Source: Gracilibacillus ureilyticus (lineage in GTDB: Bacteria; Bacillota; Bacilli; Bacillales; Amphibacillaceae). Taken from it: 64,000 bases of DNA. The position numbers were made by a program, and so were the translations under genes. Numbering within the stretch: the first letter of the stretch is position 1; each line of letters opens with the position of its first letter. The stretch covers positions 124,001-188,000 of the forward strand of contig NZ_FOGL01000004.1 of assembly GCF_900111195.1 (NCBI RefSeq), in the 5' to 3' direction. The notes beneath the pieces are model-generated. The model was not told the DNA's origin and did not search any database. It saw only the letters and a list, made by a program, of their open reading frames with translations. Shown here one piece after another: positions 11,795-54,223 of the stretch.

Positions 11795-11833
11795 GAAGCG
11801 CAAGCTAATCACATAATGATAAACTTGCGTTTC
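11795..11833 (-). terminator. Terminator of the exopolysaccharide-like operon
   Basis: GAAGCGCAAG (11795-11804) pairs with CTTGCGTTTC (11824-11833), one G-U/mismatch; on the minus strand a CTATTTATATTTT tail follows. It sits 8 bases past the last gene of the four-gene operon. Confidence 0.7.
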
Positions 11834-11840
11834 TTTCAAC

Positions 11841-14800
11841 TTATTCTTTCTTAAATGCTTCCTTAATAATATAATAGGACTGTTTCAATCTTTCCTCATA
11901 TTGCGGCTCATTCCAAGTCTCCCACGTATATGCGTTTAATGGATCAAGTCGGTTATTCTTTAATGATGGCAGAGAATCTACTATCTTGCCCTCTTCGTTC
12001 TGCTCTATTGCACCAATATGAATTTGATCAACCTTTACACTTGAATTTAAACCATCTTGATATAAATCTCCTGTTACTTCTCTCTGGCTTGGATCTCTAA
12101 AATTTAATAACAGCCAAGGAATCCTAATTTCTATGACCCCACCGTCATTATTAACAGTATAATCTGTTAAAGAATTATAATCCGCTAATTCAGGGTTTCC
12201 GTTTCCTTCCATTAATTTACCGGTCTCATAGTAATTAAAAGGAATTACTTTATTTGTACTTGGGATGAGCAGTTCATTACTTAAAGCATAATTAACAGGA
12301 ATAAACTTACCACTGTTTTGTTTTAAAGGATCACTGATTGGATCGATCAATTTTAATTGATAACGATACTGGTATGTGAACAGGTCATAATATGAATCCA
12401 CTCGCACTCTTGATTCACCGTTCTGATCAATATCAATTATAAAATCAATTCCATTACTGAATTGTTTATTTTCAAGTGACTCACTAGTCAAATTACCTTG
12501 ATCCGGCAAAGTATCCAACAGGATTTTCCAATGATGGTTACCGGTTTTGTTTAGATCCAGTTTAAGATACAAATACCGTTCATCGTAATCTGCCTGAAGG
12601 GATGTCAGATTACCAGTTTCTTTATTATAAAGTGTGGTGCTATCTGACCAATCCGTTGTCTCCCCGTCTACTTTAATTTTCAAACGGTCAAAACTTAAAA
12701 GTCCAAATTGCTGTTCATTCGTCTGTGCGTTTGACCAGTACGGCCGTCGATCCGGATTATCATAATCCATCGTATTCCATGTCCTCTTAAACCATTCATC
12801 CTGCCATGTAAAGATTAAACCGCCCAGTAGTCCTTCCTGAACGATATCTTCATATAAATTTACTACTATCTCCCCTTGCTCTTTCTCAGACAAAAATCCC
12901 TGATTCCATCCATTCGGATTGGCATGGGTCATCCCACGGGATGCGGGAACACCGAATTCAGCAATTAATATAGGGAGGTCATGGGCTGCGTGCAATTCTT
13001 CCAAATATGCAGCATAGTTATTCCTTTTTCCCCGGTGATCTCTATAGTTCAAATAATTTTCCTCATAGTTTAAAAAATCCGGATAGTATGGATACACATG
13101 ATAGGAAGCAAATTGTTTTGTTTTATCTAATTCTCCCTTTACGTGAATATGGTTAGGATTAACACTCACCATGTCCTCTTCAGGACTAGGTTCTGCAGGG
13201 TGCTCCAGTAAGTCTGTTGTCACCCAGTTGGTAAAACTGACCGGTCGAATCCAGTTGTAATTTTCCTTTTCATAGCTCACAAGTTCTTCTAATTGAACGG
13301 CAAGCCAATGTTCAAAGGGACTGGCATTTTGTGTATAAATGTATTCTCCATTGTACTCATCAATATCCTTATTCACTTCATTTGTATTAACAACCATTTC
13401 AGGGAACCACTCAATTCCAATGATCCAGCCAATTACATATTCTGAAATATCTTCACTATATACTCCTGAAGCGTGTCCAGGATGGGATGGCACAGTTGCA
13501 TTCCCATGAACAATATCCACAATTTTCTTCATCTCTGTCTGAAAATCCTGTACGATGGCATCGTCAAAAGCATCTAATTTACTTACCAATCCCTCTTCAT
13601 CAATCCAGACACCATGAAATAAATAAAGCTTGTCTTCATGAGTTTCATTATATTGTTTAAAAGCATGATAAAATTCTGGCGGATGAACTGTATATATTCT
13701 AATTGTGTTTGCACCCATGTCAGCAATTGACTCAAGCCACCGTGAATACTCTTCTTCCGTAATTGCAGCCTCACCTGGGAAAGCGCCAGGTTTAGCCATC
13801 CCCATATTGACCCCTTTTACAGGTAATGTACTCCACTCTCCATCAATCAGGACTTCAAATTTATCTTTGTTAATTCTGCTGTTATACATCAATTCCACAC
13901 CGGCTTCATCGTTTGGAATATTATCCGCAGTCCTTTCCCTTGTTTCATTTAAAATATTCTCCATTACAGGTATATATAGTGACCAGTAAAATGACTCATC
14001 TGAGAACTTCTTAAACAGCCGATAAAGGACATCCAATCCTTCCATTTGATAAAAATATGGCGCGGAAGCAATATCATTATAATCTCCCGCAAAATAATAA
14101 CTGGTTGCAGAATTCCGCTTATTTTCCGTTATACTGGCAAATTGCTGTGGAATACTGTATTCCGCTAATAACTCTTTCCCTTTATCAGTTAAGTCCCAGT
14201 TATATTCGGCTAAAGTTTCTGTTGGACCACTTGCTGAGACAATATCGAACCAGTTGTAATATGCGGCAGATTTATCCATATTAAATTTTTCCTGGCCCTC
14301 CTTAGTAAATTGAATGGAAATACCCTTTCCCTTCAAATGCTGCTCCGATTTAAGAAGGACAACCTCATTTTTTTGTTCATTAACTAACAGAAAGCCTGAT
14401 TCTTCATATTTAAAAATGTCGGGATGTTCGTCAGTTACCCATTTAGGGATATCACCATTTAAATCAGGATCTAAACTTTCGAAGTAACGCCCAATCCAGC
14501 CACTACGTTCGACTCCGAGAAACTGCTCCATGCTTTGTCTTACCTTTTCGTTTGTCGGAAAAGAAAGTGAATTGAACTCTACTATTAAGGTAGCTGGTTT
14601 TTCTTGTTGTAACCTGCTTGCTATTTGCTGCCATTCCTCCTCTTCCATTCCACCGTAGAGCAGTTCAGAATGAGCTCCATTCATTCCGTTACTGTTTAAT
14701 GAAGAATCTTGGTCATAAACTCCGTACGTGTCTGCAATATAAATCAGATCTGTTTTATCATATGAATCCGGGGGAGGAATAAGCTCATACTTCTCACTTT

Positions 14801-15041
14801 CTTTATTCGGTTTTATACCATAGTAGTCCTCCTCCATATTGTACGTTGTTCCATCTTCTTTTCTGTATTTCAAATGGTTCAATGCCCATACAAGCCCACT
14901 GTGTTCTCTGTAAGAATCATCAAGTACTGTTTTATCGATAATTACAACCTCTAGTTCTTTACCATTCTGGGAAAACCATAAAATGATTGGTAACAGTACA
15001 CATGCAATCAATATCCCGACAAATAAAGCTAATCTCTTCAA
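11841..15041 (-). CDS. Membrane-anchored glycosidase-like protein (1066 aa)
   Basis: One N-terminal hydrophobic helix (residues 5-24) serves as anchor or uncleaved signal; the rest is outside. Residues 30-390 are an unrecognised region. Residues about 393-765 read like a clan-A TIM barrel: LPVKGVNMGMAKPGAF, MGANTIRIYTVHPPEFY, YVIGWIIGIEWFPE with Glu544 (or 548) as possible acid/base, and LPILIAEFGVPAS with Glu695 as possible nucleophile, then FTWQDEW. Residues about 785-1040 look like a CBM9/DOMON-type beta domain (VDGETTDWSD, then DERYLYLKLDL). It overlaps the glycosyltransferase by 4 bases, so I infer it trims, transfers or releases that enzyme's polysaccharide. The exact GH family is unknown. 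Confidence 0.6.
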   Translation of the reverse strand: MKRLALFVGILIACVLLPIILWFSQNGKELEVVIIDKTVLDDSYREHSGLVWALNHLKYRKEDGTTYNMEEDYYGIKPNKESEKYELIPPPDSYDKTDLIYIADTYGVYDQDSSLNSNGMNGAHSELLYGGMEEEEWQQIASRLQQEKPATLIVEFNSLSFPTNEKVRQSMEQFLGVERSGWIGRYFESLDPDLNGDIPKWVTDEHPDIFKYEESGFLLVNEQKNEVVLLKSEQHLKGKGISIQFTKEGQEKFNMDKSAAYYNWFDIVSASGPTETLAEYNWDLTDKGKELLAEYSIPQQFASITENKRNSATSYYFAGDYNDIASAPYFYQMEGLDVLYRLFKKFSDESFYWSLYIPVMENILNETRERTADNIPNDEAGVELMYNSRINKDKFEVLIDGEWSTLPVKGVNMGMAKPGAFPGEAAITEEEYSRWLESIADMGANTIRIYTVHPPEFYHAFKQYNETHEDKLYLFHGVWIDEEGLVSKLDAFDDAIVQDFQTEMKKIVDIVHGNATVPSHPGHASGVYSEDISEYVIGWIIGIEWFPEMVVNTNEVNKDIDEYNGEYIYTQNASPFEHWLAVQLEELVSYEKENYNWIRPVSFTNWVTTDLLEHPAEPSPEEDMVSVNPNHIHVKGELDKTKQFASYHVYPYYPDFLNYEENYLNYRDHRGKRNNYAAYLEELHAAHDLPILIAEFGVPASRGMTHANPNGWNQGFLSEKEQGEIVVNLYEDIVQEGLLGGLIFTWQDEWFKRTWNTMDYDNPDRRPYWSNAQTNEQQFGLLSFDRLKIKVDGETTDWSDSTTLYNKETGNLTSLQADYDERYLYLKLDLNKTGNHHWKILLDTLPDQGNLTSESLENKQFSNGIDFIIDIDQNGESRVRVDSYYDLFTYQYRYQLKLIDPISDPLKQNSGKFIPVNYALSNELLIPSTNKVIPFNYYETGKLMEGNGNPELADYNSLTDYTVNNDGGVIEIRIPWLLLNFRDPSQREVTGDLYQDGLNSSVKVDQIHIGAIEQNEEGKIVDSLPSLKNNRLDPLNAYTWETWNEPQYEERLKQSYYIIKEAFKKE

Positions 15042-16471
15042 GTATTTCCCTCCTTGTTTGCCAACCCTTTCCTTTCCAGATGTCCCCAGTCATGTTTTTG
15101 TGTGAGAAAGTGGAAGATTCCTTCTATTCGCCAAATCAGAGTCAGGGGGCGATACCAAAAGACCTCAGTAAAAGATAACAGTATCAACCGAAAGAGATCT
15201 CTTATACTCGGATAAGTTCTCGTGTTCCATGCTTCAAAAATGACGGATGTAAAAGAAAAGATAGACCCGTATAAAATAAAGAGAAGAGAAAGTAATAAAG
15301 AAAATTCTACATATATACTGCCGGTAAAAAACGACCCCAGGACAAAAATATATCCTATCACTTCAATAATTGGACCAAGACACTCAACAATCCAAAAATA
15401 CGGTAATGATACTATACCAATTATTCCGTATCTAGGATTGAAAGTCATTTGCCTGTATTTCCATAAACTCTCCAGAAGACCTTGGTGCCACCTTCTTCTT
15501 TGTTTCCGAATAGAATGCAAAGATTCAGGTGCTTCCGTCCAGCATACTGGAGTCGGAACAAACTGGATTTCCTGTTTTCCCCCAGAGTCTTTTACATATT
15601 TCTGCAGTTTTATCACCAATTCAATATCTTCTCCAATTGCAGTTGTATCATAGCCTCCAACTGATATGACATGTTTCTTCTCAAAAACACTAAATGCACC
15701 TGAGATAATCAGGGATAAATTCATCTTACTTAAAGCGAGCCTTCCCATTAAAAAAGCACGAAAATATTCTATCACCTGCATGACAACAAGAATTTTATCA
15801 GAAAGAGAAACACTCATCAGTGAACCTAACTGAATATCATTTCCATTAGCTACTTTAACACTTCCTCCTGCCGCAATAACTTTACCATTCGATGTTAATA
15901 ATGGCTTCATCACACGAATTAATGCTGAGTTCTCTAGTATGGAATCTGCATCTAACGAACAAATATATGGATATCTCGATGCGTTAATACCAATATTTAA
16001 AGCATCCGCTTTTCCCCCATTGACTTTATCTATCAATAGCAAATCAGGATGAATCTTCGATTGATAAATCCCTTCCACCGGTTTTGTGTCGATTTGCTTT
16101 TTAAAAACTTTTTCTGTTTTCTCCATTTGAAAGTAATTTAACAATTTTTCCATAGTCCGATCAGTTGATCCATCGTTTACTACAATAATCTCGTACTGAG
16201 GGTACTTCAAGCTGAGAAGTGAATGAATACTCTCAATTATTCCTAATTCCTCATTATATGCAGGTACGATGACAGAAACAGGCCTCGCAAATTGTAATTC
16301 TACTAAATCATGGTCTTCTTTTTCCTGATCAAGATGATAATCTTTCCTCAGATGTCGCAATGCATATAAGAGCATTGTTCCGTATGAGACAATAACAAGG
16401 ATCATGTAAAGGAAAATAAATGAAGCGAAAAACAGTAGAATATAATTGATAATTGCACTAGGATTCACCAT
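15038..16471 (-). CDS. Processive family-2 glycosyltransferase, membrane-bound
   Basis: 477 residues. N-terminal helix at 10-35, a cytosolic GT2 domain at about 60-340, then several C-terminal helices (about 350-450). The catalytic set is complete: D100 in VVNDGSTD, D174-A-D176 in SLDADS, E281-D282 in IGEDIEL, and Q324-RRRW328. These residues and the topology match cellulose, hyaluronan and PNAG synthases (BcsA, HasA, PgaC), which polymerise and export a beta-linked glycan from a UDP-sugar. No PilZ domain is present, so control by c-di-GMP would need a partner. One base separates it from the HEAT gene, and it overlaps the glycosidase gene. The sugar cannot be predicted. Confidence 0.85.
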   Translation of the reverse strand: MVNPSAIINYILLFFASFIFLYMILVIVSYGTMLLYALRHLRKDYHLDQEKEDHDLVELQFARPVSVIVPAYNEELGIIESIHSLLSLKYPQYEIIVVNDGSTDRTMEKLLNYFQMEKTEKVFKKQIDTKPVEGIYQSKIHPDLLLIDKVNGGKADALNIGINASRYPYICSLDADSILENSALIRVMKPLLTSNGKVIAAGGSVKVANGNDIQLGSLMSVSLSDKILVVMQVIEYFRAFLMGRLALSKMNLSLIISGAFSVFEKKHVISVGGYDTTAIGEDIELVIKLQKYVKDSGGKQEIQFVPTPVCWTEAPESLHSIRKQRRRWHQGLLESLWKYRQMTFNPRYGIIGIVSLPYFWIVECLGPIIEVIGYIFVLGSFFTGSIYVEFSLLLSLLFILYGSIFSFTSVIFEAWNTRTYPSIRDLFRLILLSFTEVFWYRPLTLIWRIEGIFHFLTQKHDWGHLERKGLANKEGNT

Positions 16472-16472
16472 T

Positions 16473-17516
16473 TCATAAACTCTCCTGTATCACATTATTA
16501 GCCATTTCTTTGGCATAAAGATCGTCCGTTTCCTTAATAAATTCCTTTAATATCAGTTTGCCGCGTGCACTATTTACCAGTGATTTTGCTGCCTGATAAC
16601 GAACCCACCATTCCCTGTCCTGCATCAATCTCTTAAGCGGCTGACTAGATTGTTCAACAGGAATATAATTGAGGATTTTTGCGAGCATCAGTCGTTCTTC
16701 CCAATGCTTAGAATCCATTATTGGAAGGTAGCGATTAACATCAGAGATGGTGCCCAACACACTGATCGCTTTCAATGCCCGGATTCTCATTTCTTTATCT
16801 TTATCTGCTATAAGCTCCTCAAGGAAAGTAATCTTGTTGCGGTCATTTTTTTCAGCAATTACTTTTATCAATGCGTATTGACATGGTTCAGGCAGGTTGT
16901 CAAATAACAAAAGAAGCTTGTCTTTTGTTTCTGCATGCAAAAGCAGAAGTAATTGACGGTACTCAAATTCGCCAAGTTTAATAGGCGGTCGCATAAAAAT
17001 TTCTTTTGCCTTTTCCGGTTGGAAATTCACAACGATTTTCAGCATATGGAAATATTCCTGATCTGTATATTTTCGCCCGCTGTCCATCATCTCTATAACT
17101 GTCGATGTCAAACTATCTATCTGAAAATCTAACACTCGATATATTGCATTCAAGCGTATACTCCAGCGAGAATGGTGTAGTCTTTTGCAGTAATAATGGG
17201 ACATGTAGTCATTGGCAAACATTGAAATGCGGAGAGATAGACGATTGCTTGTTACATTCTTTTTATATTTTCCTAGTATTTCCTCGATCGCTGCAAAATC
17301 CTGCGCATATGCAGGTTTAATAAGATCCTCATTATCTATCTCATTGATTAAATAATCATACCAATCGTCCGCATGCTTTGTAATATAATTATTAATTAAT
17401 AAACGTGCTCTTTTATTTATTAACCTTTGGATAACTACATAACATGTAAGAATCAGTAATAGAGAACACATCACAACAATACCAATTGCTAATATGATCA
17501 CCAATTGCTGAATCAT
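16473..17516 (-). CDS. Membrane-anchored HEAT-repeat protein
   Basis: 347 residues. A single N-terminal helix (about 5-30) is followed by a soluble alpha-helical array. HEAT-like repeats are clearest in the second half: KTHFLEELIADKDKEMRIR-type units (EELIADKDKEMRIRALKAI, then RYLPIMDSKHWEERLMLAKI, then RLMQDREWWVRYQAAKSLV). Such arrays are protein-binding scaffolds. It overlaps the upstream regulator gene by 4 bases (ATGA) and the glycosyltransferase follows after 1 base, so a bridge between sensor and synthase on the membrane is the natural guess. Confidence 0.75.
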   Translation of the reverse strand: MIQQLVIILAIGIVVMCSLLLILTCYVVIQRLINKRARLLINNYITKHADDWYDYLINEIDNEDLIKPAYAQDFAAIEEILGKYKKNVTSNRLSLRISMFANDYMSHYYCKRLHHSRWSIRLNAIYRVLDFQIDSLTSTVIEMMDSGRKYTDQEYFHMLKIVVNFQPEKAKEIFMRPPIKLGEFEYRQLLLLLHAETKDKLLLLFDNLPEPCQYALIKVIAEKNDRNKITFLEELIADKDKEMRIRALKAISVLGTISDVNRYLPIMDSKHWEERLMLAKILNYIPVEQSSQPLKRLMQDREWWVRYQAAKSLVNSARGKLILKEFIKETDDLYAKEMANNVIQESL

Positions 17517-18427
17517 ATAGTGTACCTTCTTACAATCTGTTCAATTTTGGCTGTCAATAATTGAATATTGACTGGCTTTGTAATATACTCATCGACACCC
17601 GAGCGATACGCGTAAATCATCGCTTCCTCCGAGTTTCTTTCTGAGAGCATAAAAAGGATGAACTTATTTTTATTGGGCATATCCTGTACATGATGTAAAA
17701 TATCAATCCCATTTCTTTTTGGAAGTACTTCATTAAACAAAACCAGATGTGTATCACCTGAATAATACCAATCGGATTGAAGGAATTCCTCTCCATCCGT
17801 GAATGTACGGATTTCCCAGGAGAAGTTCTCTTTTGTTGCATTTTCCAAAACAGACTGCAGTAATCGTCTTACAACAAGATCACTTTCCACAATACTTACC
17901 TTTGTCTTAAAATGTTCCTTATCCTTAACGTTTTTCACTATCACCGTTGAGAAATATCCTTCTTCCTGTGCCTGATATAATCCTTCCTGCCCTTTGTATA
18001 AAGCCTCACGATAAGCTAAATTCTGCTGATTAATTTCTACTATACTAGCGGCTAGTTCTATTGTGAAAAATTGATTATTTTCCAAAAAACACAAAGCATC
18101 CTTATTAAAAATCCGGTTCAGAAATGCTACTGCTTCCTTTTCTCCTGAGTTAGTTAGAAACATCATCCAATTCCCTTCGGTTGGCCGTGGAAATAATAAA
18201 TCAGATAAACGCTTCTGTTTCATTAAGTATCTTTCCACTTTATTAATAGCATGTTGCTTAATAGTACTATTCCTTGTCCTTGCTACATCACTTAAAGGGT
18301 GAATGGACAGAAAAACAATCGAAAACCTTAACTGACTGCGGTCAAGGTTTGCTGCTAACATCTGATATATCTCTTCAGCTGTTTTCATGTCACTTAATAA
18401 ATGTGACTTTGTAATAGTTTCTATCAT
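17513..18427 (-). CDS. Degenerate GGDEF domain fused to a pseudo-receiver
   Basis: Start set at the ATG at 18427 (RBS GGGTGG; a GTG three codons earlier lies in that site), giving 304 residues. Residues about 30-165 have the pattern of a diguanylate-cyclase domain (RFSIVFLSIHPLSDVARTRN), but the GGDEF loop is PTEGN (82-86). Five residues before it stands R73-L-S-D76, the spacing of the c-di-GMP inhibitory site RxxD. Residues about 175-300 are a receiver: E181/D183 acidic pair, Lys284 in TKP, but the phosphate-accepting Asp is Asn232 (LFNEVLPKRNG). So it is probably a ligand-sensing adaptor, not an enzyme or phospho-switch, and it leads the four-gene operon. There is no DNA-binding domain. Confidence 0.7.
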   Translation of the reverse strand: MIETITKSHLLSDMKTAEEIYQMLAANLDRSQLRFSIVFLSIHPLSDVARTRNSTIKQHAINKVERYLMKQKRLSDLLFPRPTEGNWMMFLTNSGEKEAVAFLNRIFNKDALCFLENNQFFTIELAASIVEINQQNLAYREALYKGQEGLYQAQEEGYFSTVIVKNVKDKEHFKTKVSIVESDLVVRRLLQSVLENATKENFSWEIRTFTDGEEFLQSDWYYSGDTHLVLFNEVLPKRNGIDILHHVQDMPNKNKFILFMLSERNSEEAMIYAYRSGVDEYITKPVNIQLLTAKIEQIVRRYTI

Positions 18428-18692
18428 AAAAACCACCCAACTTATTATTCCAGTAGTCTATGTTGCCGTAGATGAGCATAATTATTTCACATTTCTTAAA
18501 AATTATATTGTAACATGGAAGTGCTCTGCTATATAGATCTCATTCCCTTTTCATCATAAATAAATCCCCATTTTCCAGCTGAATGTTTCAATATTGTAAC
18601 AATTGTCATCATTTTTTAACTAGAGAAAATGTTTCAAATTTATAAAAACGGTGTATAGATTATTAAAGAAAATTACACAGGAGGCCATTCAG

Positions 18693-21858: not shown

Positions 21859-24800
21859 TTATCTATTCCACATATCTTTCAGCTTAACAGCATCTTCGTT
21901 TAACGAATCTTTTACACTTTCTTCAAGGTCGCTCTTCGCTAAATGCTTGATGAAAACGTCTAGCTGTTTGGATGCCTGCATTGTTCTGCCATTATTTAAA
22001 TGACGTTGTGCCTGTTCCAATTTATTTTGTAAAACATTCAGTTTCTTATCGTTTGAGGTTAACTCGAGCGTATGCTTCATAGCATTCAGATTTGCTGTGT
22101 AATCAACATCAGGGAATTCCAGTGTACCATTCAGCACATCTTCTCTTACGTCTTCACCTAGATAATAACTAATATGTGGTGGCTGATTATAAGTAGTATT
22201 CTGCCACGCAATTCCCATCCGATAAACTGTATCATGCATTAATGTCGGCAGTCTGTACTCTGTTGGGATCGTTGTACTGAAAATTCTTAATTCTGAACTA
22301 TCTTCAGTAGGATAAATCGCTTCTTCTCGCCAGTCACCTAATATATCAGCCTGTAATGTTGGATTCGCTTTTGTCCCATTATTACTTACAACGTTTTCAA
22401 AGCTTTCTATTACGTTAACTTGGTTCGTTTCTTCATCATATTTTGAGATCGTGGTTCCATCTAGTAACTCATGGAATAAATCACCATCCCAATATGTTAC
22501 AAAGTTAACAGGAAGCCCGATATCCCTGAAACTGTCTGTAATCAAGTCACCTTGTACATTATATACACCGCCGCCAGTTTCCGCTGTTCCTCCACCGGCA
22601 CCCCAAAATTCATAGCCTGGGTTAGAGGTAATATTTGCTGCGACCCCTCTACCTGCATCTTTGAATGCATAAAATGATCGCAATGTTTCCCCTGTAGCAC
22701 CATCCCGATATTGTAGTGAAGCAACACCCGGATCTTCATGGACACCGAATACGTGCAGTCCTTCCCGATCAGGATCAAATGCTCCGAGATGCAGGGCATC
22801 ACCATGGGAACCTTTCTCCCTTCCCATTTCACCGTCCATTGCGTATAGAATAGTACCATCATGATCCAGTGTGAGAGAACCTGCTACTATCTCATCAAAT
22901 CCATCATTATCAACATCACCTGTTGCCAGATTGTGATTACCCAATCCTTCTCCTCGTCCAGCCTCATCAGTATCAAATACCCAGTCTTCCACTAGCTGAC
23001 CATCTTTTAAGCTATAGGAAACAAAGCCAGTTCTTCCATAATAACCACGTCCGTAAATCGCACTAGGAGTTTTTCCATTTATATAAGCAACACCTGAAAG
23101 AAAACGGTCAGATCTGTTGTAGAAATTATCGCCCCAGGAGATGCCGCCATCACCCTCTTCTTTTTCCACAGGGAAGGCAAAGTCAATTGTATCAATCACT
23201 TCACCAGTTTCGCCATTGAACACTGATACATATTCCGGTCCGCCGACAACGTGGCCGCCATCATTTATCCAGCGTCCATCATCCTCTTCATTTCCAATTA
23301 CACTGATCACCTTTTCCGGGTCATATACCCCATCTGTTGCACCATATACTTTGGTAGCATCAGCAGTTTTTATCAGAAATTCCGATTTTCCGTTACCATC
23401 CATATCTGCAACTACAAATTGATGATATTGTGGCCCTGAGGTTAAGTTCATTCCCATATTCATTCTCCACATTAATGTGCCATCCAATTCGTAAGCGTCA
23501 AAGATCGTCGGTCCTGTAATCACATCTTCCAATGCCGTCATTGCATTAGAAGGACGCCAGAGTAATATAATTTCGTATTCACCGTCACCATCCAAATCTC
23601 CTACACTTGCGTCATTCGCACTGTAAGTATACTCTCCCGTAACTGTCGAGCCTCCTTCTGGTTTTTGAAGGGGAATGGATAAGTAATCTTTAGATGCAGC
23701 AGTTACATCGCTAATATCAGCCTTTTTACCATTTACCAATGTTTCTACTTTATAAGTTGCTCCAGCTTCTCCAGCTTCGTCCATATAGTTGGTAATCGAT
23801 AATGGTTCATCGTTTAATTTTCGTCCATCACGATATATGTTAAAACTTACATCCTTATCGTATTCATCTGCAAGTAATCGCCATGAAATGAAAATACCGT
23901 CCTCAGCCTTAAGTGCTATTACTCCCCTGTTTAACCATTCCGTATCACGATTGGTGTCTGGAGGTGTTAGACGGTTATAAACATAGATAGAAGCTTTACG
24001 GGAAAAGATGTTTTCTAATTCGTCGTCCTCCGCAATAGTGCCTTCGAAATGATAGATACCTTCCTGCTCAGGATTCCACTTTCTGTCTGTTGTTTTCCAC
24101 TCATTAATTGCTACATTTATTATTTCATTACTTGCTAGTACTACTGGCACTGTATCTGGCAAGCCTATTGTATCAATATTCTCAGTAGTCTCCCCTGCAT
24201 ATACCCGGTGATATGGTAATGAAGGAACATTTGTAATAACATTATCCGCGATTGGAACTTGTGAAATTTTAATATTATCCAAATATGTTGTCCATGTATG
24301 GTTATTTCCTGATGTTCGTATACCTACCAATCTTATGGTGGATAACGTACCATCAAATGAGACTCCGTCTAACGAAGATTCATACGTTTCGATTTCCCCA
24401 CTCTCTTTATTTTCCATAGTGAGTGTTACGTTATTGTTTAACAAATCAAACATAATTTTAAGATTGTACCATGTATGAGGATCTGAAAATCCTGTTGTTG
24501 TTGCTTCATTATTACCTAGGAAATATTTAAGTGGAGCATTTTTTGTGTGATTTAATGTAAATACAGTATTTCCAGCACTATCAAGAATTCTAAATTCCCC
24601 ACCATTTTCATTAGGGTGAGTGCCTTTGTCATTGTGCTCTCCAGGATACCAGTCATATTCAACAAGCATTTGTGTCCCTCTTACAGGTTCATCAAAAGTC
24701 TTTGTCGCAACCCGTCCTCCTGATTGATCAACAATGGTGTATTGCAACTTTGCGGTATTGTTTCCTGCCAGTTCTTCTTCATTGATTGAAAGTGTGGCAG

Positions 24801-24987
24801 CAGATGTGGTAAATCCCCAATTTTCCGGTGTCAGTTCTCCAGAATCACCGAAATCTGTAAAATATACTTGCTCGAATTTGTCTTCTGTACTTACATCTTC
24901 AGCAAGAACGGGACCAAAATTACTAAAAACTAATAATAGTACGACAATTAGTAAAAAACTTTTGTTAAAATAATTAGAAATTCGCAA
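21859..24987 (-). CDS. Secreted rhamnogalacturonan lyase (PL11) with FIMAH domain
   Basis: An endo/exo-lyase of the pectin backbone (YesW/YesX family). I choose the TTG at 24987 (RBS AAAGGAG): it gives a proper signal peptide (FLLIVVLLLVFSNFGPVLA-ED), whereas the ATG at 25095 adds 36 unlikely residues. Mature layout, counted from 24987: an N-terminal beta-sandwich (about 35-240), the PL11 propeller (about 330-930) starting NRGVIALKAEDGIFISWR, with calcium-type turns DLDGDGEYE, DMDGNGKSE and DVDNDGFDE, and a helical C-terminal FIMAH-type module (about 975-1042, LDVFIKHL). FIMAH modules are common on secreted Bacillaceae polysaccharidases. Works with the GH43 and GH51 enzymes nearby in pectin use. 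Confidence 0.88.
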   Translation of the reverse strand: MRISNYFNKSFLLIVVLLLVFSNFGPVLAEDVSTEDKFEQVYFTDFGDSGELTPENWGFTTSAATLSINEEELAGNNTAKLQYTIVDQSGGRVATKTFDEPVRGTQMLVEYDWYPGEHNDKGTHPNENGGEFRILDSAGNTVFTLNHTKNAPLKYFLGNNEATTTGFSDPHTWYNLKIMFDLLNNNVTLTMENKESGEIETYESSLDGVSFDGTLSTIRLVGIRTSGNNHTWTTYLDNIKISQVPIADNVITNVPSLPYHRVYAGETTENIDTIGLPDTVPVVLASNEIINVAINEWKTTDRKWNPEQEGIYHFEGTIAEDDELENIFSRKASIYVYNRLTPPDTNRDTEWLNRGVIALKAEDGIFISWRLLADEYDKDVSFNIYRDGRKLNDEPLSITNYMDEAGEAGATYKVETLVNGKKADISDVTAASKDYLSIPLQKPEGGSTVTGEYTYSANDASVGDLDGDGEYEIILLWRPSNAMTALEDVITGPTIFDAYELDGTLMWRMNMGMNLTSGPQYHQFVVADMDGNGKSEFLIKTADATKVYGATDGVYDPEKVISVIGNEEDDGRWINDGGHVVGGPEYVSVFNGETGEVIDTIDFAFPVEKEEGDGGISWGDNFYNRSDRFLSGVAYINGKTPSAIYGRGYYGRTGFVSYSLKDGQLVEDWVFDTDEAGRGEGLGNHNLATGDVDNDGFDEIVAGSLTLDHDGTILYAMDGEMGREKGSHGDALHLGAFDPDREGLHVFGVHEDPGVASLQYRDGATGETLRSFYAFKDAGRGVAANITSNPGYEFWGAGGGTAETGGGVYNVQGDLITDSFRDIGLPVNFVTYWDGDLFHELLDGTTISKYDEETNQVNVIESFENVVSNNGTKANPTLQADILGDWREEAIYPTEDSSELRIFSTTIPTEYRLPTLMHDTVYRMGIAWQNTTYNQPPHISYYLGEDVREDVLNGTLEFPDVDYTANLNAMKHTLELTSNDKKLNVLQNKLEQAQRHLNNGRTMQASKQLDVFIKHLAKSDLEESVKDSLNEDAVKLKDMWNR

Positions 24988-25392
24988 ACCTTCATCCACT
25001 CCTTTTCCTATAAATGAGATGCTGGTCTCAACAGCTGTTCCTTTCCACCCCTCCTTTGAAAGCGTATTCATTTTAGTTGAGAACTCCTCATGCAATCTCT
25101 TTATCAGCCTACCAATTAATTTAGAATACTGTAAATAGGAATATTTTGCTTGTTTTTAAACCATTGTCAGGACAACTGTTATCCTAGTTATTAGTACTTT
25201 TTTGGATGTTTGATTTTCAATAGTGCAAATATTTCCTAGTCATATAGTTTACTCATCACCTGGTTCTATAGTAAGTAAAGCACACCTGATGTAATTTCAT
25301 TTACCTATGAATGAATATATTTCCAGACTGATAAATATACTAATAGAAATGGTGACAAAAAACTGTCGGATAATAGAGTTAGCCAATATACA
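24988..25392. other. Intergenic region upstream of the PL11 gene
   Basis: AT-rich, no gene or convincing RNA structure. It must hold the PL11 promoter; I could not assign -35/-10 boxes or a CcpA site with confidence. Confidence 0.5.
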
Positions 25393-44086: not shown

Positions 44087-47000
44087 TCAGTCTATATCCA
44101 GAACTAATATGGTAACAGAATTAGCGGACAATGTCACAACCGTTCCTTCGTCCTTTAATTCTAGTTCCGTTTCTACTGGGACCACTTGTTCCGCATCCTT
44201 TTTGTTTACATTTGGCTGATGAACAATTGATTCACTTCCTGTCACTGTAATCATTTTCGCTGTTGAATTTACTTTTATGTCTTTCAAGGAGATTTCAGTT
44301 GTTTTCTCAAATGGATCAGCATTTACCATCTTCACATACACATGATTATCGTCTTTAGTTACTGAATGGAAAATTTCATCATTATATGCTTCTAATTTGT
44401 AATCCAGTACTTTACTTGTGAATTCACCATCTGTATAAGAGCAAATTAATCTGTCCCCAGAGCCTCCGCCATAATTGACAGAAATGGTATAAGTCTTATC
44501 GTTACGGATGCCTTCGAAACAGCTAGCTCTTAAATTACCTGCAGCTGTACTGGAAGAATAATCACCGAGTGTATAGCCTTCGACTCCTTTTTTATATACT
44601 TTTACACCTGTTGCATCCCCGTTATAGCCAATTGCATACTCTATTACGTCCTTAGTCTCTGGAGAAATATTCGTTAAGCCTGCACCAATGTAAAAACCGT
44701 CATTACCGGAAATTTTCTTGGCAATTACTTCAACCTTATAGTCTGTCCAGCTATGGTTCATTACATACAAACCATTTAATCCACTATTCTGTCCCTTTAA
44801 GATGAGGCCCTTTTCAGAATCAAGCTCATATCCTTCAGAACCCGGAATCACTTTCCATTCAGACTTCAATTCTTCTGTAAAGTCCTGTTCGAACAATAAT
44901 TCCCCATTGATATTATCGATGACTTTCACATGTTTGACATGAATTTCGGCATCCCCTGTTGCGATCTCTATCCCGCCATGTGGCGCAATTTCCGTTAATT
45001 TTCCATTCCTATATGCTGAAAATGATGTATTTAACACTTTTGTGCCTAAATATTTTGCAAAAAGTTTCTGTACATAGTAATTTGGCGTAAACCAAACCGT
45101 TTCATCATCAAACCAGATTAAATCAGGGGTCCAGCGGTATGTCCCATCTGTCAGCACTTTGTTAAATAATGGCGCATAAGCAACTAACCTGACCACATCT
45201 GCGTTATTTTCATATCCTGTCATAATCGCAGCCTCTGCAATAGCACCTGCCAACGTATTTTTATCGGTTGAAGCAAATTCCCCTACAAAGACTTTTGAGG
45301 TTTCTTTTTCATCTAATGTGCCATCAGCATGATATGCCCTATAATAATAATTATAACGATCGACATTATTTAATAAGTACTCATTGGAACGGTAATAATG
45401 TTCATCAGCAATAGTATCCATGTAGTTATCCTGCTTTTCATACCATGAAACGGTCTCTTCCATCGTTTTCTTCCCATCGGTAAACTCTACAGTTGCATTG
45501 CCAGACATATTTCCGCTTAAAAACTTCCATCCCTGCTGATAAGCATCATCATCAGCTTGGGCTCCTACCGTTGAAATAATGTGTAATTCATAACCAGGAT
45601 AATTTCTTTCCATATAATCATCGATTTGCCCTTTGAAATACTCAAAGTTTGCGAAGAACTCTGTACCCCAGTTCTCATTTCCCACTCCTAAATAATGCAA
45701 ATCGAATGGATTCTCATGACCCATCTCTTTACGTAATCTGGCCCATTCATTGTGATCAAAGTCCGTGCTAATAGCAAAATCTATTAAATCAGTAAAGCTT
45801 TTTACATAATAATCTCTTAACTCACCACCTGCAGGGTTGACATAATCGGATCTCGCTTGACAGAGAACCCCACATGCCATTACTGGAAGAGGTGCAGCGT
45901 TCAGATCTTCTGCCAACTGGAAATATTCCATGTAGCCAAGACCCATTGTCATCATGTAACCCCACACATTAAAGTTTTCTTTTCTCAATTCAACTGCTCC
46001 TACAGAATCTTTCCATTCATATACATTTTCCCATATAAATGATCCTTCTGATATACAACCACCAGGGAACCGAAGAAATTTAGGATGAAGGTCAACTAAT
46101 GCATTGACAAGGTCTTTGCGCAAGCGATAGTTTGGATTCCCTTTATAATTGGTATGAGCTGTTTCAGATCTTTCTTCTTCTTTTGCCCCCCAAACGTCTC
46201 TTGGCATCAGTGAAACCATATCAATTGATGCTTCCCCATCAAATGTAAGTGTAAGCTGGCCAAGAGCTGTGTTAGAACCTGTAAGAACCAGATTTGGTTC
46301 TAAGCCGTACTTATTCCATTCATTATCACCATCTACTTGTACAGTTACTTTGTCACTTAGTGGATTGCCATGCTGATCTTGCAACTGTACATTAATCAAT
46401 GATGCATTCTCCGCTTTTGCCCAAATGGTAAAATCATAATATTCTCCTCGTTTAATGGACATTGCGCAATGATTGTTGGAATCAGTAAAACCTTTATTAA
46501 TAAGTGTTGCACCTGATGGTACTGTTAAAAAGTGAGAGTTTACTTCTTTGTCTTTTATTCCAAAAAACTCATTCAACCCACCCGTATTTTTTACTTTTAC
46601 TTTATCTGTATCTCCGAACCAAGCGTGTAACGGTACATGATTTCTACCTGTTGAACAGCCGCATGCACCAGATTCATGAGAGTAAGTATCGAAAGCAAAA
46701 GATTCAAAAGAACGATTTTGAACTAGCTCTGCATAAATCCCGCCATCTGCCGCATTATTGATGTCTTCGTAAAACAATCCATACATTATATCACTGACAT
46801 CTAATACTTCACTTCTTCCATCAATCGTTAAATGATGGGACGGCAGCCCTGCAGGAAGTACAGTAACTGTGAATACTTTCTCTGTTACACTGCCTGCCTT
46901 TTTTAAAGATGCAGTTAATGTAACTGGCTTTGGTTCATCGATATTCCCTACAATACCTCTGTCAGATAATAATACAGGATCACTCGACTTCCATGTAACT

Positions 47001-47839
47001 GTAACTTTCCCTCCCATAAGCGATGAAGGTAAAGAAACATCTTTTGAGATTACAGTAATAGGAAATGATAAATATTTATCTTTAGCAAGTTCAACAATTT
47101 CGTCATCTGTCAGAGATTCACACATCACTTCTATTACTTCATCTTCCGTTAATCCTGCTTCATAAATACGGAAATCAGATAAAGAACCATGGAAATCCGG
47201 ATCTGCTGCATGCTGTGACCGGCCGATATAATTATTGCTGTAATTGCTTTCCTCAATAAATGTTTCAAACCAGCTACGAAGCTGCTTATACGTACCGCTC
47301 GATGTTTGACTGATTGAACCATCTGCTGCAACTTCACCATTTACATAGATAACAGGGCCGGCACTGCTTAGTGTACCGCCTTCTGTTCCCCTGACAGACA
47401 TCGCCACATGAATCCATTCTCCTGATGGATACGTTTTTCCTGCATCAGCAAAAATGTCAGATTGTGAAAAACATACCCCTCGCAAATTACGTGAAAGGAA
47501 CATGTATGGTCCAGCGGGTCCCTTTCCGAAATCAAAGAAGCGTTCCCATACATTTGTACCCTTATTGAGATACACCCAGCTGCTTACCGTAATTCCAGTA
47601 TGATCGCTTACATTTTTTAATAAACCGGAGGGAAGCTGGATATAAGATGTACCATTATCCCCACCCGTGAATGTCACCGCTTTCCTTCCTGACACAGTTT
47701 GTACGGAAGGTTTTACTTTCCCTTTTGTTACAGCATTATTGCCATTTGCTGAACTGTCTCTCCCTACATCATCATGATCAGCGAAAGAATAATGGGCGAT
47801 AATTTTTTCTTTAAATGAATTGCCCTTATTATTTGTCAT
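44087..47839 (-). CDS. GH51 alpha-L-arabinofuranosidase with LamG domain
   Basis: 1250 residues. Layout: LamG/concanavalin domain (about 10-235), an Ig-like immunoglobulin segment (about 245-330), the GH51 catalytic part (about 335-970) and a C-terminal beta domain (about 975-1150, GNDGFYIGAG). Retaining residues: Glu722 in LGVGNENWG (acid/base) and Glu854 in VFVGEFAST (nucleophile); YGLFYEDINNAADGG and FPGGC are family marks. It removes arabinose from arabinan, arabinoxylan or pectin side chains. It starts MTNNKGNSFKEK with no signal peptide, which is odd for a protein with binding modules. RBS GAGGGGG. Palindromes upstream may be operators. Confidence 0.9.
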   Translation of the reverse strand: MTNNKGNSFKEKIIAHYSFADHDDVGRDSSANGNNAVTKGKVKPSVQTVSGRKAVTFTGGDNGTSYIQLPSGLLKNVSDHTGITVSSWVYLNKGTNVWERFFDFGKGPAGPYMFLSRNLRGVCFSQSDIFADAGKTYPSGEWIHVAMSVRGTEGGTLSSAGPVIYVNGEVAADGSISQTSSGTYKQLRSWFETFIEESNYSNNYIGRSQHAADPDFHGSLSDFRIYEAGLTEDEVIEVMCESLTDDEIVELAKDKYLSFPITVISKDVSLPSSLMGGKVTVTWKSSDPVLLSDRGIVGNIDEPKPVTLTASLKKAGSVTEKVFTVTVLPAGLPSHHLTIDGRSEVLDVSDIMYGLFYEDINNAADGGIYAELVQNRSFESFAFDTYSHESGACGCSTGRNHVPLHAWFGDTDKVKVKNTGGLNEFFGIKDKEVNSHFLTVPSGATLINKGFTDSNNHCAMSIKRGEYYDFTIWAKAENASLINVQLQDQHGNPLSDKVTVQVDGDNEWNKYGLEPNLVLTGSNTALGQLTLTFDGEASIDMVSLMPRDVWGAKEEERSETAHTNYKGNPNYRLRKDLVNALVDLHPKFLRFPGGCISEGSFIWENVYEWKDSVGAVELRKENFNVWGYMMTMGLGYMEYFQLAEDLNAAPLPVMACGVLCQARSDYVNPAGGELRDYYVKSFTDLIDFAISTDFDHNEWARLRKEMGHENPFDLHYLGVGNENWGTEFFANFEYFKGQIDDYMERNYPGYELHIISTVGAQADDDAYQQGWKFLSGNMSGNATVEFTDGKKTMEETVSWYEKQDNYMDTIADEHYYRSNEYLLNNVDRYNYYYRAYHADGTLDEKETSKVFVGEFASTDKNTLAGAIAEAAIMTGYENNADVVRLVAYAPLFNKVLTDGTYRWTPDLIWFDDETVWFTPNYYVQKLFAKYLGTKVLNTSFSAYRNGKLTEIAPHGGIEIATGDAEIHVKHVKVIDNINGELLFEQDFTEELKSEWKVIPGSEGYELDSEKGLILKGQNSGLNGLYVMNHSWTDYKVEVIAKKISGNDGFYIGAGLTNISPETKDVIEYAIGYNGDATGVKVYKKGVEGYTLGDYSSSTAAGNLRASCFEGIRNDKTYTISVNYGGGSGDRLICSYTDGEFTSKVLDYKLEAYNDEIFHSVTKDDNHVYVKMVNADPFEKTTEISLKDIKVNSTAKMITVTGSESIVHQPNVNKKDAEQVVPVETELELKDEGTVVTLSANSVTILVLDID

Positions 47840-52150: not shown

Positions 52151-54223
52151 TCACTGCTCTGCTAAAATCCTCTGACTTGTTTTCCCGCCAACTATTCCAT
52201 CTACCGTTAAATCATGACTTGTCTGAAACGAACGGACCGCATTAATTGTTTCCTCATCAAAAAAACCATTTACGTACAGATCGTTATGATAAAAACCTAA
52301 TTTTTTTAACTGGATTTGCAACAAAATAACATCAACGCCAACACTTCCTTGTTTTATTATTCTCGGATAGAGACTTTCATTCTTTCGTTTCGCAATGAAA
52401 TCTGCTGATCTTGTTAATACAACAGCCATTTGAGCACGCGTTACACTTTCAGTTGGGGCAAAAGTAGCAGAAGATGTCCCCTCAAAGATTCCCTGTTGTT
52501 TCATTGCCACAATTACCTCCCAGGACCAGCGCTCTCTGGAAACATCTTTAAAATTTACCGGGATGTCCACTTTCGATGGATCATATTGCTCTTTAAAGAT
52601 ATTATCAAAAACTTTGGCCATTTGTTCTCTGGTCAATTCTTGATCTGGACCAAACGACCCATCCCCCCTTCCGTGAAAAATACCATGTTGCTTGGCAATT
52701 TCTATATCCTCATGCCCCCAGAATGACTTCGGCACATCTGAGAAAGAATTACCAATCGGTTTTAACGGTTTAAGATCCAGCATACGAACAAGAACAGCAG
52801 CTGCCTCGGCGCGGGATAATTCGTCATTTGGACCAAATGTAGTAGAGTTTTTTCCATGAAACCATTCTTTTTCTTTAACAAAAAAGATTTCATCTCTTGC
52901 CCAATGATTTTTGACATCTTCAAAAGGAGCCTGAAAATTATTATGTGGATACACTGGTAGATTCACCGGAACATTCTCTTCGCCATCATGAGATGCAAGC
53001 CAAATTCCATAATTATTCCACACAGAAGGGTTTTCCTGACCAATACTCCAACTGCCTGTTCCCTTCAAATTATATTTATGAACAAGGTCAATTTTAGCTT
53101 TTAAAGACTGGTCATTTTCATACCAAACCTCGTAATTACCTGGTTTAAGTGTTCTACCTCCAATAATTGAAGTTGGGTCAGCCGCTTTAATAGTAAAATT
53201 TGCTCTTGGTGATTCAGCGTAGGAATCATATGTAATGGATCCATTATATTTTTTTATGAGTGATTCAATCTGGTGATTGGAAGCTCCGTATCCGCCAGTT
53301 AGTTCATGGCTATTCCAATAACGCCCAAAAAACGGTAAGCCTAATACAATTTTGTTCGGATCAATGTTTTCATCTATCACTAATGCTTTAATCGAACGGT
53401 CGACCCAGCCCACGCTTGCGACTGGACCGGCGGGACCACCCTGGTAGCTTTCATCGTATGCCATCAGCATCAGATAATCTGCATGCTTTGCCAATTCCTT
53501 ATTATCATATGAACCGTGCCATCCCGTCTTCCAGTGGTTAGGATTTGCTGCAATAGCTACAGATACTTCCTTATGGGCGGGAATTTTCTCTCTCAGTAAC
53601 CGGACTAAATCCGTGTAACCATCCTTGCTTTTTTCATTCACATTTTCGATATCTACATTGACACCATCTAACTCGTATTTTTCGATCGCTTCAGCTATCT
53701 GGCTTGCTAATTTTTCCCGATTTGCAACCGCTGCTTCGCCCACACTTCGATTCCAGTGATTACTTAAAAAGGGGACGACTTTAATATTTCGGGAATGCAT
53801 TTCCTTAATAAAGGTAGTATCCACACCGGAGAGTGCGAGAGATCCATCAGCATTAACATTAAAATAACTTGGTGAAATAACATTTAATGCTCCCTTTGTT
53901 CGATCAACTGATTGAATAACAGACGCTGTTGACCCGAAAAATGAGTATGTCATGTTAAAGGAAGCATCATGTGCACTTACCTGCATCGTATTCAGTGGAA
54001 TTGTCATAATAATGGAGGTACCTATTACTACTTTCGCTGTAACGATATGTAAACCTGTCAGCCTTTTTTTAACATACTTGTTTACAAGTTGTTTCATTTT
54101 TCTTTCTTCTTCAACAGGTTTTGTTCCAAACTCATTTGAAAATTCCTCAAGGTTTGGACTTATGTATAAATACACCACATAACCTTCATCTGTCTCTTGT
54201 AATCGATGATGAATGAATTCCAT
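52151..54223 (-). CDS. Surface GH18 glycosidase with three SLH and a peptidoglycan-binding domain
   Basis: 690 residues. Residues 1-55 are cytosolic, a helix at about 60-85 is the anchor or signal, then a GH18 barrel (about 90-410) with LDGVNVDIENV (DxxDxDxE, Glu as acid) and LMAYDES; then three SLH repeats (about 440-610: FEDVKNHWARDEI, FSDVPKSFWGHEDI, FKDVSRERWSWEVI), and a PG_binding_1 domain (about 625-690: IQLKKLGFYHNDLYVNGFFD). The GH18 part is YaaH/SleL-like, cutting N-acetylglucosaminidic bonds in peptidoglycan. The long start before the signal is unusual. Confidence 0.88.
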   Translation of the reverse strand: MEFIHHRLQETDEGYVVYLYISPNLEEFSNEFGTKPVEEERKMKQLVNKYVKKRLTGLHIVTAKVVIGTSIIMTIPLNTMQVSAHDASFNMTYSFFGSTASVIQSVDRTKGALNVISPSYFNVNADGSLALSGVDTTFIKEMHSRNIKVVPFLSNHWNRSVGEAAVANREKLASQIAEAIEKYELDGVNVDIENVNEKSKDGYTDLVRLLREKIPAHKEVSVAIAANPNHWKTGWHGSYDNKELAKHADYLMLMAYDESYQGGPAGPVASVGWVDRSIKALVIDENIDPNKIVLGLPFFGRYWNSHELTGGYGASNHQIESLIKKYNGSITYDSYAESPRANFTIKAADPTSIIGGRTLKPGNYEVWYENDQSLKAKIDLVHKYNLKGTGSWSIGQENPSVWNNYGIWLASHDGEENVPVNLPVYPHNNFQAPFEDVKNHWARDEIFFVKEKEWFHGKNSTTFGPNDELSRAEAAAVLVRMLDLKPLKPIGNSFSDVPKSFWGHEDIEIAKQHGIFHGRGDGSFGPDQELTREQMAKVFDNIFKEQYDPSKVDIPVNFKDVSRERWSWEVIVAMKQQGIFEGTSSATFAPTESVTRAQMAVVLTRSADFIAKRKNESLYPRIIKQGSVGVDVILLQIQLKKLGFYHNDLYVNGFFDEETINAVRSFQTSHDLTVDGIVGGKTSQRILAEQ

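Follow-up and report, generated by a model that had tools for sequence, protein, structure and literature searches.

A 64,000-nucleotide stretch of the Gracilibacillus ureilyticus genome (contig NZ_FOGL01000004.1, positions 124,001 to 188,000; hereafter "the window," whose numbering is used throughout) carries a four-gene operon that probably encodes an exopolysaccharide machine of the synthase-dependent type gated by cyclic di-GMP (c-di-GMP). In this machine, a membrane HEAT-repeat protein would link a c-di-GMP receptor to a family 2 glycosyltransferase (GT2). Control by c-di-GMP is proposed by analogy with the logic of PelD (PMC7112168), YdaK (PMC7064775), and PssE (PMC4125290), which are degenerate GGDEF receptors whose I-site turns on synthases. 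The genes are as follows:

17513-18436, minus strand: gene 1, adaptor with a degenerate GGDEF domain and a pseudo-receiver; 307 amino acids from a GTG start at 18436, with an alternative ATG at 18427
16473-17516, minus strand: gene 2, HEAT-repeat protein with one N-terminal membrane helix; 347 amino acids
15038-16471, minus strand: gene 3, membrane GT2 glycosyltransferase, PgaC/IcaA-like; 477 amino acids
11841-15041, minus strand: gene 4, membrane-anchored two-module protein; 1066 amino acids from a TTG start

By their open reading frame (ORF) coordinates, genes 1 and 2 share 4 bases, genes 2 and 3 are 1 base apart, and genes 3 and 4 again share 4, exactly as an earlier sequence-only reading of this DNA had described. 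The order of functions proposed there (GGDEF/REC sensor, HEAT scaffold, polymerizing glycosyltransferase, and extracellular glycosidase) also holds. Matches to REC (PF00072, E = 1.7e-12), HEAT_2 (E = 1.2e-11), and Glycos_transf_2 (E = 1.3e-23) in genes 1, 2, and 3 lie above the Pfam cut-offs, the GGDEF domain is recovered by hhalign, and a glycosidase is suggested by predicted fold. Beyond that reading, the degenerate GGDEF domain appears to keep a predicted c-di-GMP I-site, and what had been called a giant glycosidase appears to consist of two separable modules, the first of which resembles an exopolysaccharide-binding domain in its modeled fold.

The gene set recurs in other genomes. A genome-collection scan with the fourth gene found at least 582 relatives, from which 80 loci were kept (given below by L numbers). 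HEAT and GT2 genes lie side by side in 67 of the 80 loci, and GT2 and glycosidase genes are contiguous on one strand in 48, which contradicts the possibility, raised with the sequence-only reading, that the four genes are not conserved together in any other genome. Because the loci were picked by the fourth gene alone, the HEAT-GT2 pairing in 67 of them points to a layout beyond chance. Thirteen of the 80, some perhaps cut by contig ends, have no HEAT gene within the stretch examined. All 88 HEAT ORFs in L034-L141 adjoin a GT2 gene on the same strand. Intergenic gaps across loci were taken from longest-ORF starts and are rough. With partial matches counted, the fourth protein has relatives in 25 of the 101 near genomes, a figure that includes the genome at hand; across the class, 64 of 250 genomes and 26 of 105 genera have them. 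A plasmid search found three partial relatives. For the HEAT protein, counted alone irrespective of its neighbors, the corresponding figures in the order are 152 of 397 genomes, again with the present one included, and 54 of 135 genera.

Sorted by the regulator beside the HEAT gene, the 80 loci comprise 29 of type A (short, like that of the window), 29 of type B (matching cyclase profiles), and 9 with another neighbor. All but one of the 29 type-A loci are contiguous through the glycosidase gene. Type-B regulators are mostly 530-570 amino acids long, and have an Hpt-REC-GGDEF-REC architecture where tested (L042). Next in line, in many loci, come a REC protein and a hybrid histidine kinase. In Domibacillus aminovorans, both types are present (A at L067, B at L104).

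The features of the regulator are listed here:

17933-18415, minus strand: degenerate GGDEF domain, residues about 8-168 (hhalign probability 99.2, E = 2e-19)
18200-18211, minus strand: RLSD, an RxxD I-site (R76-D79) and predicted c-di-GMP site, from conservation across type-A rows
17543-17899, minus strand: receiver (REC) domain, residues 180-298
17732-17734, minus strand: phospho-acceptor position, with Asn235 replacing Asp, from the alignment of 32 type-A rows

Judged from its sequence, the gene 1 product is a double pseudo-enzyme, in which a degenerate GGDEF domain is joined to a receiver without its phospho-acceptor Asp. The N-terminal half has no Pfam match, and its kinship comes from the hhalign comparison with the GGDEF domains of cyclase-type regulators. 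Of the 32 type-A rows, window included (L035 and L076 are apparently one genome, and L118 is without the GGDEF domain region), 29 have Asn at the acceptor position, 2 have Ser, and 1 has Asp. A GG[DE]EF motif, counted by eye on the regulator alignment, is present in 0 of the 31 rows holding the region, and RxxD is intact in 28 of 32 (R in 31, D in 28). Among 32 type-B rows (from 39 regulators, those above 400 amino acids, with L040/L122 and L043/L130 each being the same locus twice), the acceptor Asp is kept in 31, GG[DE]EF in 23, and RxxD in 21. Across 22 non-redundant type-A rows, R76 is conserved at 100% and D79 at 91%, where the mean for the domain is 42%. Of the 29 type-A loci, 10 have a separate GGDEF-motif gene at a distance of no more than about 10 kilobases (kb). 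About 2 would be expected from the density in the present genome (14 GGDEF matches in 4.07 megabases), which is a rough expectation given that other genomes differ. Elsewhere in this genome, about 48 kb ahead of the window, a stretch of roughly 13 kb contains four genes with GGDEF matches (L160:915-14014, G000:C17).

The second and third genes encode the presumptive link and the synthase, with these features:

17448-17504, minus strand: membrane helix of the HEAT protein, residues 5-23, from hydropathy
15944-15952, minus strand: DxD motif of the GT2 (DAD, residues 174-176)
15488-15502, minus strand: QxxRW motif of the GT2 (QRRRW, residues 324-328)

To judge from the charges that follow its helix, the HEAT protein appears to have its repeats on the cytoplasmic side. 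No hydrophobic segment was detected in the regulator by hydropathy, and the membrane-anchored HEAT protein is therefore the likely link between regulator and GT2. The GT2 carries DxD, ED, and QxxRW motifs, the last being a mark of processive synthases, and membrane segments flank its catalytic domain on both sides. A Pfam scan found no PilZ domain in this protein.

The fourth protein, for which hydropathy indicates one N-terminal membrane helix, combines two modules:

13914-15041, minus strand: N-module (residues 1-376), membrane helix and GATase1/ThuA/Agd3-like domain; model pLDDT 92.2, Foldseek
11844-13907, minus strand: C-module (residues 379-1066), GH-A-like TIM barrel followed by beta-rich domains; model mean pLDDT 89.4, Foldseek
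13410-13412, minus strand: E544, proposed acid/base; Glu in 70 of 70 rows of alignment A2 and 22 of 22 of alignment A1
12957-12959, minus strand: E695, proposed nucleophile; Glu in 70 of 70 rows of alignment A2 and 20 of 22 of alignment A1

The full-length protein has no Pfam, NCBIfam, or PDB-sequence match, including no match to a curated glycoside hydrolase (GH) family in Pfam or NCBIfam, and when the GH alignments were searched as profiles against PDB sequences, each gave a single match at chance level. Its two modules, a GATase1/Agd3-like domain and a GH-A-like barrel, also occur apart: the N-module stands alone in L055, L056, L057, and L059, and the C-module in L048 and L051-L054. When the separately folded N-module was submitted to Foldseek, Agd3 (6nwz) ranked third with an E value of 1e-5, after two GH42 enzymes and ahead of ThuA-like and GATase1-like proteins, and the GATase1-like 3rht was also matched. 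Agd3 (CE18/CBM87) is an exopolysaccharide enzyme with a GATase1/ThuA-like domain, the part to which the N-module is compared by fold match. That domain, which resembles 3rht, is reported to bind polymer and to be the founder of CBM87 (PMC7229062). Unlike Agd3, the protein examined here has its N-module fused to a GH-A-like barrel rather than to a deacetylase, and Agd3 was not listed when PDB sequences were searched by profile.

For the C-module model, Foldseek placed GH157 first, followed by GH2 glucuronidases. The predicted fold suggests a GH-A barrel and, with low TM-scores, a glycosidase. E544 and E695 presumably serve as acid/base and nucleophile, respectively, roles that we assigned by motif position, and a predicted TIM barrel with two such carboxylates agrees with clan GH-A. 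Two loci (L058 and L060) have Ser at the position of the proposed nucleophile, so that branch may bind instead of cut.

Related loci show several other arrangements of these modules. The N-module alone is found with a protein of 567-615 amino acids in five loci (L055, L056, L057, L059, and L171). In three of them, the protein that replaces the glycosidase module is 567-568 amino acids long (L057:4771-6474, L059:5897-7603, and L171:8744-10447) and has weak matches only, for example to Y_phosphatase2 and TIGR01244. A second layout consists of the C-module alone, HEAT, GT2, a REC adaptor, UDP-glucose dehydrogenase (Ugd), and a GlmS-like gene (L051 and L164 by Pfam; L052-L054 by position). In the sister operon at L162:4501-6823, the REC adaptor has the dehydrogenase only beside it, and those at L051:427-4741 and L164:13141-17201 have the GlmS-like gene as well; these gene contents suggest a polymer of glucuronate and hexosamine. 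The REC adaptor of the Ugd-linked layout has Glu at the phospho-acceptor position in 5 of 6 rows. Three genes beside the L051 operon (L051:12004-16217) form a trio that we take to resemble a ComQXPA quorum-sensing set: one encodes a polyprenyl synthetase, one a response regulator of the LuxR type, and one a HisKA_3 histidine kinase that includes a PDZ-like part. In L058:4942-13545, C-module, HEAT, and GT2 genes have CotH and VTC genes as neighbors, and in L158 the neighbors are annotated as polyphosphate polymerase, DUF4956, and CotH. A Deinococcus radiophilus plasmid encodes a TPR-C-module protein, HEAT, and GT2.

The genes, their motifs, their conservation, and the kinship of the regulator with cyclases are observed; from these we infer complex formation, c-di-GMP binding, polymer synthesis, and trimming as follows. 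The GT2 would polymerize a sugar and move the chain through the membrane, and the HEAT protein, anchored by its single helix, would bring the GT2 and the soluble regulator into one complex. Acting as a receptor rather than an enzyme, the regulator would bind, at the RxxD of its degenerate GGDEF domain, c-di-GMP made by other cyclases, which may be found among the 14 GGDEF matches in this genome. The receiver, locked by the change from Asp to Asn, may be the surface to which the HEAT protein binds. On the outside of the cell, the anchored fourth protein could grip the emerging chain with its Agd3/CBM87-like module while the barrel trims it.

Several findings weigh against this interpretation. 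First, R33 and R108 are as invariant as R76 in the 22 non-redundant type-A rows, so the I-site is not the sole feature that is kept. Second, three Kurthia type-A regulators carry RxxN, and in 19 of the 29 type-A loci, the nearest 10 kb or so contain no GGDEF-motif gene. Third, the N-domain of the Ugd-linked adaptor is not recognizably GGDEF, so c-di-GMP is not needed for every member. Fourth, the best NCBIfam model for the GT2, PgaC/IcaA, scores 140 bits where the cut-off is 422. The operon also encodes no export partner, so translocation by the GT2 is assumed. Finally, Foldseek TM-scores for the fourth protein are low, reaching at most 0.24 (query) and 0.47 (target) among the 50 matches listed for the C-module and 0.39 (query) and 0.57 (target) among those listed for the N-module. 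GH42 enzymes, not Agd3, are the top matches of the N-module, and the domain of GH157, GH42, or Agd3 that was matched is deduced without aligned ranges.

The Kurthia proteins, which have lost the I-site Asp, the Ugd-linked adaptors, and the 19 loci with no GGDEF-motif gene nearby, together with the loss of both the GGDEF motif and the phospho-acceptor, would all fit a different role for the regulator. The GT2 could make a polymer as proposed, but with a regulator that no longer senses c-di-GMP and acts as a structural adaptor, taking its input through contact with another protein such as a cyclase or kinase. We regard this as rather unlikely, because R76 and D79 are among the best-kept residues of a fast-changing domain, which is hard to explain without a ligand. 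It is very improbable that the GT2 instead adds sugars to a wall polymer or lipid, with the fourth protein remodeling the product or an outside glycan: dolichol- and undecaprenyl-phosphate transferases are among the solved-structure sequences that match the GT2, over some 45-65 residues only, and the lack of an exporter or precursor gene would suit such an enzyme, but chondroitin and heparosan synthases are in the same list, and the QxxRW motif, the flanking membrane segments, the PgaC/IcaA model, and the Ugd and GlmS-like genes beside sister GT2s favor a processive synthase.

In a tree of 148 receiver domains, built on few columns and with bootstrap values that had not settled, 30 type-A receivers form one clade (100/98), which joins 26 of 32 last receivers of type-B proteins (99/94). 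The type-A GT2s likewise form one clade (99/99), drawn inside type B. That type A is nested within type B is not shown, as the approximately unbiased test did not reject the other GT2s forming a clade of their own (p = 0.307; 43 other GT2 rows, 30 type-A rows, and 3 outgroup rows, with 12 loci left out). In the GT2 tree, the group B_DGC was set by neighboring profile matches and wrongly takes in eight rows: the four Ugd-linked ones (L051-L054), because the cyclase profile picked up their REC adaptor, and also L127, L128, L132, and L134. In these last four loci, from Neobacillus and relatives, the regulator ORF is just 140-159 amino acids long and is perhaps a receiver alone. The sole claim we draw from the trees is the single origin of type A as one clade of predicted pseudo-enzymes, and the direction from enzyme to receptor would follow from the loss of catalytic residues.

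The operon appears to act like the Yda, Pss, and Pel systems, but it is not a member of Yda, Pss, Ica, or Bcs. BcsB (PF03170) has 0 matches in the whole genome, with positive control matches in Escherichia coli and Bacillus subtilis. DUF2334 (PF10096) also has 0 in the whole genome, with a control match in B. subtilis (among 7). Pfam and NCBIfam detected no deacetylase domain of the IcaB/PgaB kind in the four operon proteins. Membership in Yda or Pss was rejected on this basis: an RxxD-bearing degenerate GGDEF domain is present, but BcsB, DUF2334, and a membrane-anchored receptor are not. The Yda system has a GT2-type synthase, as here, together with the BcsB-like YdaN and the DUF2334 protein YdaL. 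The likeness to B. subtilis ydaJKLMN drawn in the sequence-only reading stands. Gene 1 has an RxxD-bearing degenerate GGDEF domain and YdaK is described as a degenerate GGDEF receptor with an I-site (PMC7064775); YdaJ is described as an outside carbohydrate-active protein (PMC13274460), as the gene 4 product is proposed to be. The difference in composition noted there is equally apparent: YdaK has four membrane helices (PMC7064775), whereas the receptor here is soluble with a REC domain and accompanied by a HEAT protein, and BcsB and a deacetylase are missing within the scopes given above.

Listeria pssA-E shares an IcaA-like GT2 and a degenerate GGDEF I-site receptor, PssE, that is essential for the polymer. 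In contrast, Pss has the BcsB-like PssD, and the sections available of the same report mention neither a HEAT protein nor a REC domain (PMC4125290). Gram-positive pelDEADAFG loci encode PelD, a degenerate GGDEF protein with RxxD, and some have CotH, polyphosphate polymerase, and DUF4956 genes nearby (PMC7112168), as at L158, whereas the present operon has a GT2 and a HEAT protein. Although Ica/Pga supplies the nearest NCBIfam model of the GT2, membership in this poly-N-acetylglucosamine group was rejected, with a score a third of the cut-off and no deacetylase domain in the operon. A second synthase set in the same genome (L159:5688-8939, G000:C19) consists of three consecutive genes for a beta-glucanase-like protein, a PgaC-like GT2, and an IcaB-like deacetylase, none of which reaches its NCBIfam cut-off. 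Cellulose (Bcs) membership was rejected for a GT2 without PilZ in a genome without a BcsB match.

The sequence-only reading had known of no described system with this gene set. Consistent with this, no description of it is found among the matches listed from open-access titles and abstract openings, a scope outside which fall most subscription journals and all preprints. A bolder and less likely reading is that these operons represent a separate, widespread synthase class extending from Bacilli to Deinococcus. Its core would be the GT2, the membrane HEAT protein, and an outside glycan-binding or glycosidase module, combined with exchangeable controllers: an active phosphorelay cyclase, a double pseudo-enzyme c-di-GMP receptor of the same stock, or a REC adaptor. 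The polymer of the Ugd/GlmS branch would then be of the hyaluronan or heparosan type, built from glucuronate and N-acetylglucosamine. Known Gram-positive systems resembling the operon are marked by BcsB, Pel, or Ica genes. Because this operon is without BcsB and relatives of its last gene occur in 26 of the 105 sampled genera of the class, Bacilli may make a widespread matrix polymer that has so far escaped notice. An active-looking cyclase and a catalytically dead receptor in the same operon position also offer a natural comparison of how a signal maker becomes a signal reader.

The single terminator assigned to the operon in the sequence-only reading is borne out in part. One further feature lies just 3′ of gene 4:

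11798-11830, minus strand: hairpin just 3′ of the operon, possible terminator; fold energy z = -3.4, absent from the consensus scan list

The fold at this end reaches -19.4 kcal/mol against a shuffle mean of -10.3, and 1 of 200 shuffles is equally good. However, the U tract is interrupted and the consensus terminator scan is silent at this site. Promoter-like sites in the scan are no more frequent than in shuffled sequence. Other carbohydrate-active genes of the window encode a rhamnogalacturonan lyase of family 11 (21859-25095), an alpha-L-arabinofuranosidase (44087-47839), and a GH18 protein with S-layer domains (52151-54223).

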